Positions 59,117 through 64,000 of a DNA stretch of 64,000 bases are shown one piece after another. This DNA is from Steroidobacter agaridevorans (GTDB lineage Bacteria > Pseudomonadota > Gammaproteobacteria > Steroidobacterales > Steroidobacteraceae), in contig NZ_BLJO01000001.1 in the NCBI RefSeq assembly GCF_009932555.1, forward strand, positions 622,472 to 686,471, written 5' to 3'. The position numbers and the translations under genes are program-made. Below the pieces are notes generated by a model. The model was not told the origin of the DNA, did not search any database, and was given only the letters and a program-made list of their open reading frames with translations. Numbering within the stretch: the stretch's first letter is position 1; every line of letters starts with the position of its first letter.

Positions 59117-59473
59117 TCACAACCGCGGGCACGCGCTGACCACCAGCGCTGGCAGAACCAGCAACACCAAGGCGATCAGTGCAATCCCGCCGCTCGCCAA
59201 AGTCACGAAACCGATGAAACGCGAATGCTCGTCGATCGCTGCGTCTCGCTGTAAACGATAACCGCGACGTACGACCGCCACGGTGGCCGCGCCGGCGATC
59301 AGCGACGCGAGCAGCGTCATCAGCGTGACGATGGGCACACCGAACCAGCTCACATCGGCAAAGCCCCGCGCACACGCAACCGCCGCGAATACATACACGA
59401 AGGCGAAATCCGCCATCCAGACGAGCAGCCCGCCCAGAATCAAAAACGTGGTTCTCGTGAAGGGATGTCGCAT
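59117..59473 (-). CDS. Small membrane protein of the cytochrome oxidase operon
   Basis: The roughly 118-residue protein has three or four hydrophobic segments (TFLILGGLLVWMADFAFVYVFAAVA, VPIVTLMTLLASLIAGAATVAVV, GFVTLASGGIALIALVLLVLPALVV). I do not recognise the family. It begins at the stop of the subunit I+III gene and is the last gene of the oxidase operon, so it may be a small accessory subunit or assembly factor. A GTG at 59479 forms a GTGA overlap; the ATG at 59473 has GGGGTG upstream and is used here. Confidence 0.7.
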   Translation of the reverse strand: MRHPFTRTTFLILGGLLVWMADFAFVYVFAAVACARGFADVSWFGVPIVTLMTLLASLIAGAATVAVVRRGYRLQRDAAIDEHSRFIGFVTLASGGIALIALVLLVLPALVVSACPRL

Positions 59474-59475
59474 GA

Positions 59476-61995
59476 TCACCCCAGCCGAGGCGAATGCATC
59501 ACGACCAGCGCGACGACTCCCTGCGCCGCGCAGTAGTAGCTCATGATGCGGGTGTTATCGAAAACATTCCGACGCACCGAGTCGATCATGCCGAGCGACA
59601 GTCGCGCCACGGAGAAGCCGACCATCAACGTCAGCAACACGGCATGCAGCCCCTGCCAGGCCACCATCGTGTAAGCCGTCGATGCATAACCATGCAAGTG
59701 GGGGCGAAGATTCGTTCCCATCAACGCATGCAAGCTCGCTCCAAATGCGAGCCATATCGCCACCAGCGCAATCAACAGAGCGACGATCACGCCGCGACGC
59801 CGGCTCGCCCCCAGCGCCCGATTCGCCGCGAACAAGGCCCCGGCAACGACGAGCCAGGCAATGAGCGCCGCCACGGAGCTTCCCACCAGTGGCATATCCA
59901 GACTCTCCGGGGGAAAGCCGGACAACGTCACCGTCCATAGATAAAGAAACGAAAAGATCAAACACGCGAAGATGCTGCCATCCACGAGCATCAACACGAC
60001 CACCGACCACCACGAATGCGAGCGGCTACCACTCATGTAATCCGGCAGACTGAGCCCGCCGCCGACATCGAACAGCTTTCCCGAGGGCGCGGGGTCGCTG
60101 TCCCACAACCACATGAGAATGCTGCCCAGTGCGACCAGCGCTCCGGCAATCGCGACGATCATCCACTTGACCGTGAGCGCGAGAAAGAAGACCGCCGTGC
60201 CGACGCCAGCCAGCATCGGCAACCAGCTCGATCCCGGCAGACGCAATAGATACTCGGGTCGCGCATCGACGGGACTGGTGACAATGCTCTCTCGACCGCC
60301 CGTCATCGTGCCGGGCAGATAGTGCTGACCTGCGTCCACTTCCTGTCGCAGCGCCGCTCGATTCCACAGCGGCTCGCGGCTGTCGATGAAAGGCACGCTG
60401 CGAATCGCATACTCATCCTGCGGCAGCCATTCGAGCGTGCCCGCGTTCCAGGGATTGGTATCCACTTTCCCAGCGGGCCGGAAGTGCAACATCAGATCCA
60501 GCAACACGATGCCGATACCTGCCGCAAACAAGAATGCTCCGATCGTCGAGAGCAAGTTGTAAGGCTCCAGGCCATAACCCTCCGCGTACGTCCAGACGCG
60601 GCGTGGCATGCCCAGCAGCCCGGCAATATGCATGGGGAAGAAAGCCAGGTTCACGCCAATGAACATGATGGCGCAGGCCCACTTCCCCATGCGCTCCGAC
60701 AGGTGCCGGCCACTGATCATCGGCGCCCAGTAATAGATGCCCGCGAACACAGGAAACAACATGCCGCCGATCAGCACGTAGTGCAGGTGAGCCACGACGA
60801 AATATGTATCGTGCGCCTGCCAGTCGTAAGGCACGACCGCGAGCATGACGCCAGTCAATCCACCCAGCACGAATACACCGAAGAAGCCGAGCAGGAAGTA
60901 AGTCGGCGTCGCGCGCTGCACGTTGCCTCGCCACAGCGTGGCGATCCACGAAAACACTTGCAGCCCGGCCGGAATCGCCACCGCCATGCTCGCCGCGGAG
61001 AAGAAGCTGAGCGACAGGTGCGGCATGCCGGTCGCAAACATGTGATGCACCCACAATGCAAAGGAGATGGTCCCCGTCGCCAGCATCGCGACCACGATCC
61101 AGCGATATCCGATCAACGGCGCCTGCGCCATGGTCGCGACCATCATCGACACCAGGCCCGCCGCCGGCAGGAAAATGATGTAGACATCCGGATGTCCGAA
61201 CAGCCAGAACAGATGCTGCCAGAGCAACGGATCGCCGCCCCGCTCGGCCAGGAAGAACGGCCAGTGGAACGCGCGCTCGAGCTCGAGCAGCGCCGTCGCG
61301 AGAATCACTGGCGGAAAGCCGAAGATGATCATCGCGCCGACGATGAGCATCGCCCACAGATAGATGGGCATCTTGTCGAGCGTCATGCCCGGCGGCCGCG
61401 TTCGCAAGATGCCCACGACGATCTCGATCGCGCCGGCGATGGCCGAGATCTCGATGAACCCGATGCCGAGCAGCCAGAAGTCCGTGCGCAGCCCGGGCGA
61501 GAACTCGTAGCTGGTGAGCGGCGGATACATGAACCAGCCGCCGTCGGGGGCAAGGTCGAAGAAGATGGTGGTGAAGAACACCAGCCCGCCGACGAAATAC
61601 GCCCAGAACGCATAGGCCGACAGCCGAGGGAACGGCAGGTCTCGCGCTCCCTGCATCGCCGGCAACAACAGAATGCCGATCGCCTCGACCACCGGCACGG
61701 CGAACAGAAACATCATCACCGAGCCGTGCATCGTGAACAGCTGGTTGTACAGATCGGCATCGACCAGGTTGTTTCCCGGCACCGCCAGCTGAGTGCGCAT
61801 GATCAGCGCCAGAATGCCACCGAGCACCAGAAACAACAGCGCCGCGCCGATGTACCAGAGACCGATCGCTGTGTTGTTGACTTGCGTCAGTACGCGCCAG
61901 CCTTTCGGCCGTTCCCAGACAGCGCGCAATCGGTCGAACTCACCAGCGGGACGCGGCAGCGAGTTCGGCAGCTCAGGCGATGCGCCCGAGCTCAC
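59476..61995 (-). CDS. ctaD: Cytochrome c oxidase subunit I fused to subunit III (CtaD-CtaE)
   Basis: The 839-residue heme-copper oxidase core has all heme and copper ligands: His in TMHGSVMM (near 90), HPDVY (near 268, cross-link His and Tyr), VHHMF (near 317) and VAHLHYV. Subunit III-like helices occupy about 615-839. Unusual residues are Asp where E286 (Rhodobacter numbering) normally lies (GHPDVY) and Gln where K362 lies (PAGLQVFSW). The usual NN of the D-channel segment is SA (FPRLSAYAFW). The GTG at 61995 has GGGGAG six bases upstream and overlaps the subunit II stop (GTGA); an upstream GTG at 62013 is less likely. Confidence 0.93.
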   Translation of the reverse strand: MSSGASPELPNSLPRPAGEFDRLRAVWERPKGWRVLTQVNNTAIGLWYIGAALLFLVLGGILALIMRTQLAVPGNNLVDADLYNQLFTMHGSVMMFLFAVPVVEAIGILLLPAMQGARDLPFPRLSAYAFWAYFVGGLVFFTTIFFDLAPDGGWFMYPPLTSYEFSPGLRTDFWLLGIGFIEISAIAGAIEIVVGILRTRPPGMTLDKMPIYLWAMLIVGAMIIFGFPPVILATALLELERAFHWPFFLAERGGDPLLWQHLFWLFGHPDVYIIFLPAAGLVSMMVATMAQAPLIGYRWIVVAMLATGTISFALWVHHMFATGMPHLSLSFFSAASMAVAIPAGLQVFSWIATLWRGNVQRATPTYFLLGFFGVFVLGGLTGVMLAVVPYDWQAHDTYFVVAHLHYVLIGGMLFPVFAGIYYWAPMISGRHLSERMGKWACAIMFIGVNLAFFPMHIAGLLGMPRRVWTYAEGYGLEPYNLLSTIGAFLFAAGIGIVLLDLMLHFRPAGKVDTNPWNAGTLEWLPQDEYAIRSVPFIDSREPLWNRAALRQEVDAGQHYLPGTMTGGRESIVTSPVDARPEYLLRLPGSSWLPMLAGVGTAVFFLALTVKWMIVAIAGALVALGSILMWLWDSDPAPSGKLFDVGGGLSLPDYMSGSRSHSWWSVVVLMLVDGSIFACLIFSFLYLWTVTLSGFPPESLDMPLVGSSVAALIAWLVVAGALFAANRALGASRRRGVIVALLIALVAIWLAFGASLHALMGTNLRPHLHGYASTAYTMVAWQGLHAVLLTLMVGFSVARLSLGMIDSVRRNVFDNTRIMSYYCAAQGVVALVVMHSPRLG

Positions 61996-62993
61996 TGCAG
62001 ACTCCCCAACCACGCCGACAGCGCGCGCAGTTCAACACCCGAGTACGCAAGCGACGACGGCATCTTGTTCCCCGGCTTCACATCCTGGGCGCCGGCAATC
62101 CAGCCCGCCATAGTGCCGATGTGATTATTGAGCGTGCCGGCGGCAAGCGACTTTCGGCCACCGACGTGCGTCAGATCCGGGCCCGACGTGCCATCCGCGG
62201 GCGTCCCTCTGATCGTGTGACAGCTATGACACTCGCCACGAAAGAAGGCGTCGTAGCCGATTTTCAAAAAGGGATCGACAGGCTCTACAACGGACGTTTG
62301 TTGACGCGCCAGCCAAGCATCGAAGTCATCCCCGTTCTGCGTAACGACGAACAGCGCCATCAACGCATGCTGCCCGCCGCAATACTCGGCGCATAGCGCA
62401 CGAAATGTTCCTTCCTCGCTCGTCTGCAGACGCAAGTGAGTCGTTCGTCCAGGAATCATGTCCACCTTGCCCGCCAGCGACGGCGCCCAAAAGCTGTGAA
62501 TCACATCGGTCGTCGAGAGCACCAGTTCCACCGCCTGGTGGGTCGGCATGCGGATCTCGTTCGCTAGCACGACCGGCTCGCTCTGCCCCGCCCGCTCGTA
62601 ACGAACTTCCCACCACCATTGCTTGCCGACCACGTGAATCCTGAGAACATCGTCGACCGTTGTCCGCGCACGCGCATCGCCGAGGCCAAAACAATCCAGA
62701 AACAGTTGCAGAGCGCTGCTCGATCCGATCGCGTTCAAGCCATTGCCGACGGCCAGCGAATACATCAACAGCACAGTCAGCGTGAACGCAGGAAACGCGA
62801 GACCGCCGCCGAGAATCCAGTAGCGCGCGTTGACCGGCCTTCCTTTTGTAAGGACTGCATAGATGACGAGCGCCATCACGACCAGGAAAATCAGACCGCT
62901 GCCGACATACAACGCCGTGCCGAGCTGATCGATCAACTCGGCGCCGCTGCCCGACGCGGGATCCAAAGCCGACGCAGGATGAGGCGGCCGCAT
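61992..62993 (-). CDS. ctaC: Cytochrome c oxidase subunit II with C-terminal cytochrome c domain
   Basis: The 333-residue protein has two membrane segments (near 30-50 and 62-82) and a cupredoxin domain. The CuA ligands are in HSFWAPSLAGKVDMIPG (first His near 167) and CAEYCGGQHALM (two Cys, His and Met near 203). A C-terminal heme c domain has CHSCH near 257 and a distal Met in GNKMPSS near 311. It accepts electrons from soluble or lipoprotein cytochromes and passes them to subunit I. No signal peptide beyond the first membrane segment is obvious. Confidence 0.95.
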   Translation of the reverse strand: MRPPHPASALDPASGSGAELIDQLGTALYVGSGLIFLVVMALVIYAVLTKGRPVNARYWILGGGLAFPAFTLTVLLMYSLAVGNGLNAIGSSSALQLFLDCFGLGDARARTTVDDVLRIHVVGKQWWWEVRYERAGQSEPVVLANEIRMPTHQAVELVLSTTDVIHSFWAPSLAGKVDMIPGRTTHLRLQTSEEGTFRALCAEYCGGQHALMALFVVTQNGDDFDAWLARQQTSVVEPVDPFLKIGYDAFFRGECHSCHTIRGTPADGTSGPDLTHVGGRKSLAAGTLNNHIGTMAGWIAGAQDVKPGNKMPSSLAYSGVELRALSAWLGSLQ

Positions 62994-62995
62994 GA

Positions 62996-63361
62996 TCAGT
63001 CGGACTCATATAAATAGGCGGCCATGTCACGAGCGTCCTGCTCCGACATCGAGATGGCGGGCATCGCGGTCTGCGGCGCCATCGCCGGGGCATCGACGAT
63101 CCAGCGCACCAGCATGTCCGGCTCGTTTGGGAATTTTCCCGCGACATAGGAGCGACGTGAGTAATGATCCAGCGCCGGCCCGACCTTCCCAACGGCGTCC
63201 GCGACACCCGGAATCACATGGCACACACCGCACTCATAGCGCGCCAACGCTTCACGACCCCGATCCGCGTCGCCATCGACCACTCTCGGCACATAGTCAC
63301 GCTCGGGAGCACAAGCAAACAGCAGCGGCAGCAAAATGAACAGCGAGAGTTGGCGCATCAT
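62996..63361 (-). CDS. Monoheme c-type cytochrome, probable lipoprotein
   Basis: The 121-residue protein has a lipoprotein signal (LLPLLFACAP, Cys near 17), one heme site CGVCH (near 44) and a distal Met in APQTAMPAISMSEQ (near 99). It ends 2 bases before the subunit II start, so it is a likely electron donor or extra subunit for this oxidase. The pattern 'YVAGKFPNEPDMLVRWI' recurs in the neighbouring cytochrome ('YIAGVLPNTRENLVRWI'), suggesting that the two share a domain by duplication. Confidence 0.9.
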   Translation of the reverse strand: MMRQLSLFILLPLLFACAPERDYVPRVVDGDADRGREALARYECGVCHVIPGVADAVGKVGPALDHYSRRSYVAGKFPNEPDMLVRWIVDAPAMAPQTAMPAISMSEQDARDMAAYLYESD

Positions 63362-63365
63362 CTCA

Positions 63366-64000
63366 CTACTCTTCCGTCATCAGATAACGCGCCATCTGGC
63401 GAGCGTGCGGCTCGATCACATCGAGATCCGGCATCATAGTGTGCGGACTGAAGTCCTGTGGCGCAACGATCCAACGCACCAAGTTCTCGCGTGTGTTGGG
63501 CAGAACGCCCGCGATGTACTTGCGCTCGCGCCAGCCTTTCAACGACGGCCCGACGTGCGTCTTCGGCCCGACCATGCCACCGATGATGTGACAGTTGTCG
63601 CACGCGTACTGCCGAAACATGATCTGCGTTCGCTCTCGTGTGTAAGCAGCAGCAGCGGTCGGCGCGGGACATGTTTCATCGGCACTCGATTCATCCAACT
63701 CACGATGCTGGGCCACCGTCATGAACGGCATGGCCTTCAAGTACGCCACCGTCGACCACAATCCTTCGCTCGATATCCGGTATTCCCAAGCCGGCATGCC
63801 CGACATGCGCACGCCCTGCTGCGTGACATAAAAAAGATGCGCGGCGGGCCAGTCCCGAGCGGATTCCGACAAACTGCTCGGTGAAGGAAGTTGTCCGCGG
63901 CCGAGCGGGTCGCGAGCGACGCCGGGGGCGCCGTGACATTGCACGCAATACCTGCGGTAGCACGCATAACCTATATTCACATTGGCCACGCGCCCGAGAT
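63366..64000 (-). CDS. Diheme c-type cytochrome (partial, 5' end outside window)
   Basis: At least 211 residues are visible, with two heme sites, CVQCH near the N-terminal edge and CDNCH about 115 residues later, and two cytochrome c domains. The frame stays open through the window end without a signal peptide, so the true start lies outside; an internal GTG at 63989 is probably not the start. The second domain resembles the neighbouring monoheme protein. It is first in the visible part of the oxidase operon. Confidence 0.85.
   Translation of the reverse strand, partial: LGRVANVNIGYACYRRYCVQCHGAPGVARDPLGRGQLPSPSSLSESARDWPAAHLFYVTQQGVRMSGMPAWEYRISSEGLWSTVAYLKAMPFMTVAQHRELDESSADETCPAPTAAAAYTRERTQIMFRQYACDNCHIIGGMVGPKTHVGPSLKGWRERKYIAGVLPNTRENLVRWIVAPQDFSPHTMMPDLDVIEPHARQMARYLMTEE

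Follow-up and report, generated by a model that had tools for sequence, protein, structure and literature searches.

Background

The locus described here raises the question of whether an A-family haem-copper oxidase can do without its K channel and, if so, by which route its protons would be taken up. Oxidase models give the K channel a job of its own, the delivery of a proton to the active-site tyrosine during reduction. In the passages of PMC8079940 that deal with this matter, every pumped proton of the A family uses the D channel, the K channel supplies one or two of the protons for the chemistry, and a K-like channel is all that the B and C families possess. Key K-channel residues are missing from both subunits in an A-family clade that is natural, conserved and widespread, and such a clade offers a direct test of the need for this channel and of what may substitute for it, and could show how an oxidase runs on a rebuilt proton path. 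The member carried by pSymB of the laboratory organism Sinorhizobium meliloti 1021 is a representative of the clade on which such a test could be made.

We report the sequence analysis of one such oxidase, encoded in a stretch of 64,000 nucleotides from Steroidobacter agaridevorans (hereafter the window). The original prediction, made from the DNA, was of a fused subunit I+III with altered D- and K-channel residues, the enzyme either belonging to a subfamily that uses other proton paths or pumping less. Residue numbers in this work refer to the 845-aa form of the protein (minus 6 for the shorter start), and their Rhodobacter equivalents, such as K362 and E286, were mapped by motif anchors.

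Results and discussion

The oxidase gene and its neighbours

The ctaD/E gene lies on the minus strand (Table 1). Its longest open reading frame, 59476-62013, begins with a GTG at 62013 and encodes 845 aa, and a shorter form of 839 aa begins at 61995 with a GTG that overlaps the stop of coxB as GTGA and has the sequence GGGGAG six bases to its 5'-side. The protein matches PF00115 at 5.6e-142 and reaches 671 bits with CtaD_CoxA (TIGR02891), barely above the curated cut-off of 670.75. An AlphaFold model (mean pLDDT 89.9, pTM 0.91) aligns with the I+III protein of Thermus caa3 (PDB 2yev) for 762 residues over positions 36-842 with an rmsd of 2.3 Å, the longest alignment among the structure matches and the third by Z. 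The Pfam models of subunit III found no match in the last 234 residues; the family-profile columns at about 690-823 also match stand-alone genes near canonical ctaD. Together, the Pfam and TIGRFAM matches and the 2yev alignment confirm the predicted A-type oxidase with fused subunits I and III and a c-type subunit II.

Table 1. Features of the oxidase locus, with positions in the window
Feature	Position	Strand	Basis or occurrence
120-aa hydrophobic protein directly 3' of oxidase gene	59117..59479	-	position kept in relatives
ctaD/E, fused cytochrome oxidase subunit I+III	59476..61995 (ORF open to GTG 62013)	-	PF00115, TIGR02891, structural match to Thermus caa3 I+III
Codon CAA of Q352, K362 position of K channel, motif PAGLQVFSW	60958..60960	-	Q in 87/104 tree rows; K in 22/22 canonical rows
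Codon GAT of D276, E286 position, motif GHPDVY	61186..61188	-	Asp in 6/104 tree rows, two origins
Codon of E197, N207 position, D channel	61423..61425	-	E in 77/85 Gln rows; N in 22/22 canonical rows
Codon of E188, helix IV	61450..61452	-	E in 82/85 Gln rows; G in 22/22 canonical rows; gained once on tree
Codons of S132-A133, N139-N140 positions, FPRLSAYAFW	61615..61620	-	N at 132 in 22/22 canonical rows
Codon of D125, D132 position, D-channel mouth, kept	61639..61641	-	D in 72/87 Gln rows
Codon of E110, helix II	61684..61686	-	E in 75/82 Gln rows; V or T in 22/22 canonical rows
coxB, subunit II, CuA site, haem c domain at C terminus, no Glu at E101 position	61992..62993	-	PF00116, PF00034
Small c-type cytochrome, lipoprotein-like N terminus, one CxxCH, likely electron donor	62996..63361	-	PF00034
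c-type cytochrome, two CxxCH motifs, ORF continues beyond window end	63366..63989	-	PF13442; L118:1838-2773

Six histidines (H96, H274, H323, H324, H409 and H411), which we take to be the metal ligands of the haems and CuB, are invariant in an alignment of 43 rows, as is the cross-link tyrosine Y278, and the claim that all metal ligands are intact therefore stands. These features bear on the idea that the protein is an NO reductase or some other oxidase-derived enzyme. NO reductases take up their protons by other routes, and altered proton channels would suit such an enzyme; set against this are the invariant tyrosine and ligand positions, the intact CuA motif of the window's subunit II and the absence of the NO reductase motif H-X-Arom-X-E, as given in PMC3084760, in place of which the window has H-P-D-V-Y. 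We regard this identity as very improbable.

The dN/dS ratios of the gene against four other genomes of the genus are 0.07, 0.11, 0.16 and 0.16, and the ratio against L013, the closest relative in the family outside this genus, is 0.30, with dS being high beyond the closest two of these comparisons. Such ratios indicate that the gene is under purifying selection. A sequencing error behind D276 and Q352 was considered and ruled out, given this selection and the recurrence of both residues in the same four genomes. We read the locus as encoding an apparently functional O2 reductase supplied by the neighbouring cytochromes. The genome of the window, of 8 Mb, encodes seven PF00115 proteins, a highly branched array of terminal oxidases or related proteins.

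The 120-aa protein occupies the same place in L013, L155 and L156 (43, 34 and 25% identity, respectively), with eight invariant columns, two of them Cys. A Pfam search with this protein gave no match, and it is possible that it represents an extra, unnamed subunit of the oxidase. The gene order coxB-ctaD-small protein recurs in Azospirillum, and the member from Aquibium has a CtaG-like gene and cytochromes upstream.

Loss of K-channel residues in two subunits

The original prediction placed a Gln at the K362 position, and the CAA codon in PAGLQVFSW shows this to be correct. To place this residue we used a subunit I tree of 104 rows, taken from 144 proteins picked by motif; the 40 left out comprise two duplicates of the window gene, three fragments and 35 further canonical rows. 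On this tree, from which A2, SoxM, archaeal and B-type enzymes are absent, the Lys at position 352 was lost once, and a branch with a support of 99.7 separates the 91 rows without it (87 with Gln and four with Ala) from all the others. A search with a YSHPxVY-like pattern for comparison rows of type A2 returned five matches, none of which reads as an oxidase. Q352 is itself invariant in the 43-row alignment, and the Gln is evidently an old feature of these enzymes. Residue frequencies were compared between 86 Gln rows (one, L008, being a duplicate) and 22 canonical Lys rows.

The loss extends to subunit II. The Glu of this subunit at the position of E101 is kept at all 44 loci with a Lys-type subunit I and absent from all 77 loci with a Gln-type subunit I that have a readable subunit II, out of 87 Gln rows. 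At 59 of these 77 the column holds Val, Ile or Leu, within a Gly-rich stretch. Passages of PMC9687966 name K362, E101 and H96 as the titratable residues of the K channel, and cite mutants in which E101 is essential, yet doubt that E101 itself carries the proton. With K362 replaced by Gln in subunit I and E101 lost from subunit II, the classical K channel is therefore, as far as its residues tell, dismantled in both subunits.

A modified K-like path may nevertheless still work, in which Gln352, the Ser and Thr residues and waters would lead to the Tyr, and another entrance would replace E101. The Ser/Thr positions and the Tyr of the channel do persist in many rows. The window keeps the Ser299 position and the Tyr (S289 and Y278; Ser291 and Tyr280 in Paracoccus); 15 of 20 held-out rows retain the former, the T352 position is conservatively Ser in 84 of 86 rows, and the Gln, as noted, does not vary. 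Further points on this side are the B-type channels without that Lys listed in PMC3084760 and an acidic residue that 11 of the 77 Gln-type subunits II have close to the E101 column but outside it, mostly three or four residues before. Against such a path stand the complete absence of E101 itself, an Ala at the Ser299 position in one subclade (the other 5 of the 20 held-out rows) and the T359 position (Thr351 in Paracoccus), which is A349 in the window and Thr or Ser in most relatives. On balance we consider a working K-like path rather unlikely.

The D channel and the gained acidic residues

The predicted replacement of Asn-Asn by Ser-Ala after FPRL is likewise present, the window reading FPRLSAYAFW where canonical enzymes have FPR/LPR(M/L)NN. 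Position 132 is variable among the 83 Gln rows (S in 49, N in 16, T in 10, G in 7 and A in 1), so that the Asn of the N139 position is found in 16 of them; that of the N121 position, I114 in the window, is found in three.

Alongside these losses, three Glu residues have been gained (Table 1), all of which fall within helices of the AlphaFold model. Position 197 corresponds to the D-channel residue Asn199 in the Paracoccus numbering of PMC3084760. By helix periodicity, position 110 would lie one turn from N121 and on nearly the same face, and E188 would face away from the D-channel side. Two of the three gained acidic residues hence occupy D-channel positions or lie close to them. Neither E110 nor E197 is invariant in the Gln clade, and the exceptions to E188 are three actinobacterial rows (L098, L107 and L114). 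The signature E110-E188-E197-E276-Q352 is present in 19 of the 20 readable among 21 loci outside the 43-row alignment, a set that is not unbiased, having been found with the profile of that alignment as the query; the one locus without it, L178, belongs to the Trp/Ala group described below. The original prediction would have been overturned by alternative Lys or Glu residues in the same channels, as known from already described subfamilies. Alternative Glu residues do occur in or near the D channel, and we found no description of the channels of this subfamily.

One branch has a further Glu in helix VIII, E343, in 15 of the 104 tree rows (L051-L054, L056-L061, L064, L067, L077, L124 and L125). 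Position 289, that of Ser299, is Ala in all five rows of this branch in which it was read (L055, L124, L125, L164 and L165).

Changes at the D-channel Asn positions decouple pumping in studied enzymes, and PDB 3ehb, the title of which names a decoupling D-pathway mutation, is among the structure matches of the model. The enzyme might thus reduce O2 and pump little or nothing, serving as a sink for electrons or a scavenger of O2: the N121, N139 and N207 positions are I, S and E in the window, and the six other PF00115 proteins of the genome could carry energy conservation. The three acidic residues, though, were gained and kept, which is not mere decay, and they are conserved across phyla, and we judge a loss of pumping to be unlikely. 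Were pumping to survive in this clade, it would constrain the mechanisms proposed for it; were it not to, the clade would provide a natural decoupled oxidase.

Aspartate at the E286 position

The Asp of GHPDVY, at the position of E286, was also read correctly (codon GAT). It occurs in five close full-length members within the window's genus (G000 and G010-G013; 14 genomes of the genus were searched), and the sixth tree row with Asp is a distant actinobacterial MAG, L107. Glu occupies this position in 93 of the 104 tree rows. It is also found at 276 within the same genus, in L192 (from G004; fused-type, 56% identity, cut by the contig end) and in the unfused L014 and L193, and in L013 (63% identity). 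The exact DNA pattern for GHPDVY matches in 7 of 369 gammaproteobacterial genomes; two of the seven matches are oxidases, both in the window's genus, and the other five do not read as oxidases.

The Asp, in the light of this distribution, is recent, and we infer that with it one lineage of the genus carries a conservative variant of the proposed D-like path. The treatment of the Asp and Gln changes as a single set in the original prediction does not survive, the former belonging to one lineage of the genus and one distant MAG and the latter to the clade as a whole. E286D was considered as the chief finding and rejected as a recent conservative change, with two origins among the 104 rows and 2 of 369 genomes by exact pattern.

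A proposed rebuilt path for protons

The reading that we prefer, with a probability of about one in two, is that of a caa3 oxidase of the A family without a classical K channel, in which most or all protons would be taken up by a rebuilt D-like path. Electrons would pass from the neighbouring c-type cytochromes to CuA by way of haem c in subunit II. Protons, including the one for the catalytic Tyr that canonical enzymes supply through the K channel, would enter by the rebuilt path, which in the window may run from D125 by way of E197/E110 and helix IV to D276. Pumping would probably be kept. Of the two possibilities that the original prediction offered, a subfamily with other proton paths is upheld at the level of sequence, where Gln-362 and the loss of E101 mark a large clade with three conserved helix Glu residues; the route itself we infer. 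A point against the D-like path is made in PMC8079940, which argues that a high barrier separates the Tyr from the end of the D channel.

More tentatively, the rebuilt D-like path may be the only one, with no K channel at all, the proton of the Tyr then following a route not known in any studied enzyme. As part of this stricter reading, and just as tentatively, the clade might be seen as mirroring the oxidases of families B and C.

Relation to known oxidases

The window protein has the His ligands and cross-link Tyr that define the haem-copper oxygen reductase superfamily. Type A2 has Tyr in place of the Glu, in the motif YSHP, and the window has FGHPD. The caa3 oxidase of Thermus thermophilus (2yev), an A2-type enzyme, has YSHP at this place; it shares the I+III fusion and the fold with the window protein, at 30% identity. 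Canonical aa3 oxidases (those of Rhodobacter and Paracoccus, and L001 of the window genome, with its usual Glu, Lys and Asn-Asn) share the ligands, the catalytic Tyr and D132 with the window protein, but keep K362, E286, N121, N139, N207 and E101 of subunit II, and lack E110, E188 and E197.

With respect to the definitions in the relevant passages of PMC3084760 (Paracoccus numbering), the window has Asp in place of Glu278, which marks type A1 and is present in the 93 tree rows noted above; it has the D-channel Asp124 of this type as D125, and I114, S132 and E197 in place of Asn113, Asn131 and Asn199. Of the K-channel residues given for family A, Ser291 and Tyr280 are present (S289 and Y278), and Lys354 (K362) and Thr351 are replaced by Q352 and A349. 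In the sequence set of the same source, only 4 of 1216 were without the channel residues of their type, all of them placed in type B.

The fusion of subunit III to subunit I, evident from the 2yev alignment over 36-842 and the profile columns, agrees with COX operon type a, or A1 subtype a, to which the described COX1-3 fusions belong (PMC4013037, PMC6431628). Like the window protein, these are I+III fusions of proteobacteria in which haem c on subunit II is common; the likeness to the present rows is by description only, and the passages concerned are silent on loss of the K channel. In the archaeal oxidases of family A, the K channel is described as having been lost seven times under one of two scenarios (passages of PMC8239418), a loss shared with the present clade, to which these archaeal enzymes are likened by description only. 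CoxMNOP of Pseudomonas pseudoalcaligenes KF707, as described in PMC5492768, is a second oxidase of the aa3 type whose subunit II carries haem c, like that of the window, but its 66-kDa CoxN fits the unfused 594-aa type of L004, in which the Lys is kept, and not the I+III protein of the window. The COX1-3 fusion has thus been described and the loss of the K channel in archaeal family A discussed, and any novelty would lie in the loss from two subunits, of which our literature search, with subscription papers mostly beyond its reach, found no account.

Spread of the clade and its divergent members

Rows lacking the Lys come from Alpha-, Beta- and Gammaproteobacteria, Planctomycetes and three actinobacterial MAGs, as judged from the tree rows and a list of relatives that holds the best 80 of at least 588. 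Screens for full-length members (>1000 bits) found them in 6 of the 143 gammaproteobacterial genomes covered, and in 11 of 249 across the phylum. Among plasmid records, 238 cover at least 80% of the query, which is a match by coverage only; residues were read in the members from Sinorhizobium meliloti 1021 and Azospirillum, both of which have GHPE and Gln. L156 lies on plasmid unnamed1 of Aquibium oceanicum; because this plasmid is typed as conjugative, the genes of the oxidase family are probably mobile.

A sister group includes unfused or divergent forms (L014, L015, L096, L101, L105, L108-L110, L112, L115, L116 and L193), apparently without a fused subunit III. D132 is lost in 11 of its 14 rows, where it is replaced by N, S, T or E, and therefore cannot be the entry throughout. 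In the forms listed, D132 and K362 are gone, as is E101 wherever subunit II could be examined, and E188 and E286 remain; to judge by these residues they are without any classical proton entry.

A further small group combines a Trp in place of E286 with an Ala in place of K362 (L048, in its second copy, from 11903, L111, L113, L117 and L178), and shows that the Glu itself can be lost. By the Glu/Tyr rule this group is neither A1 nor A2. It keeps D132 and the D-channel Asn residues, its subunit II lacks E101 by eye, and its CuA motif has Gln or Val instead of the usual Glu.
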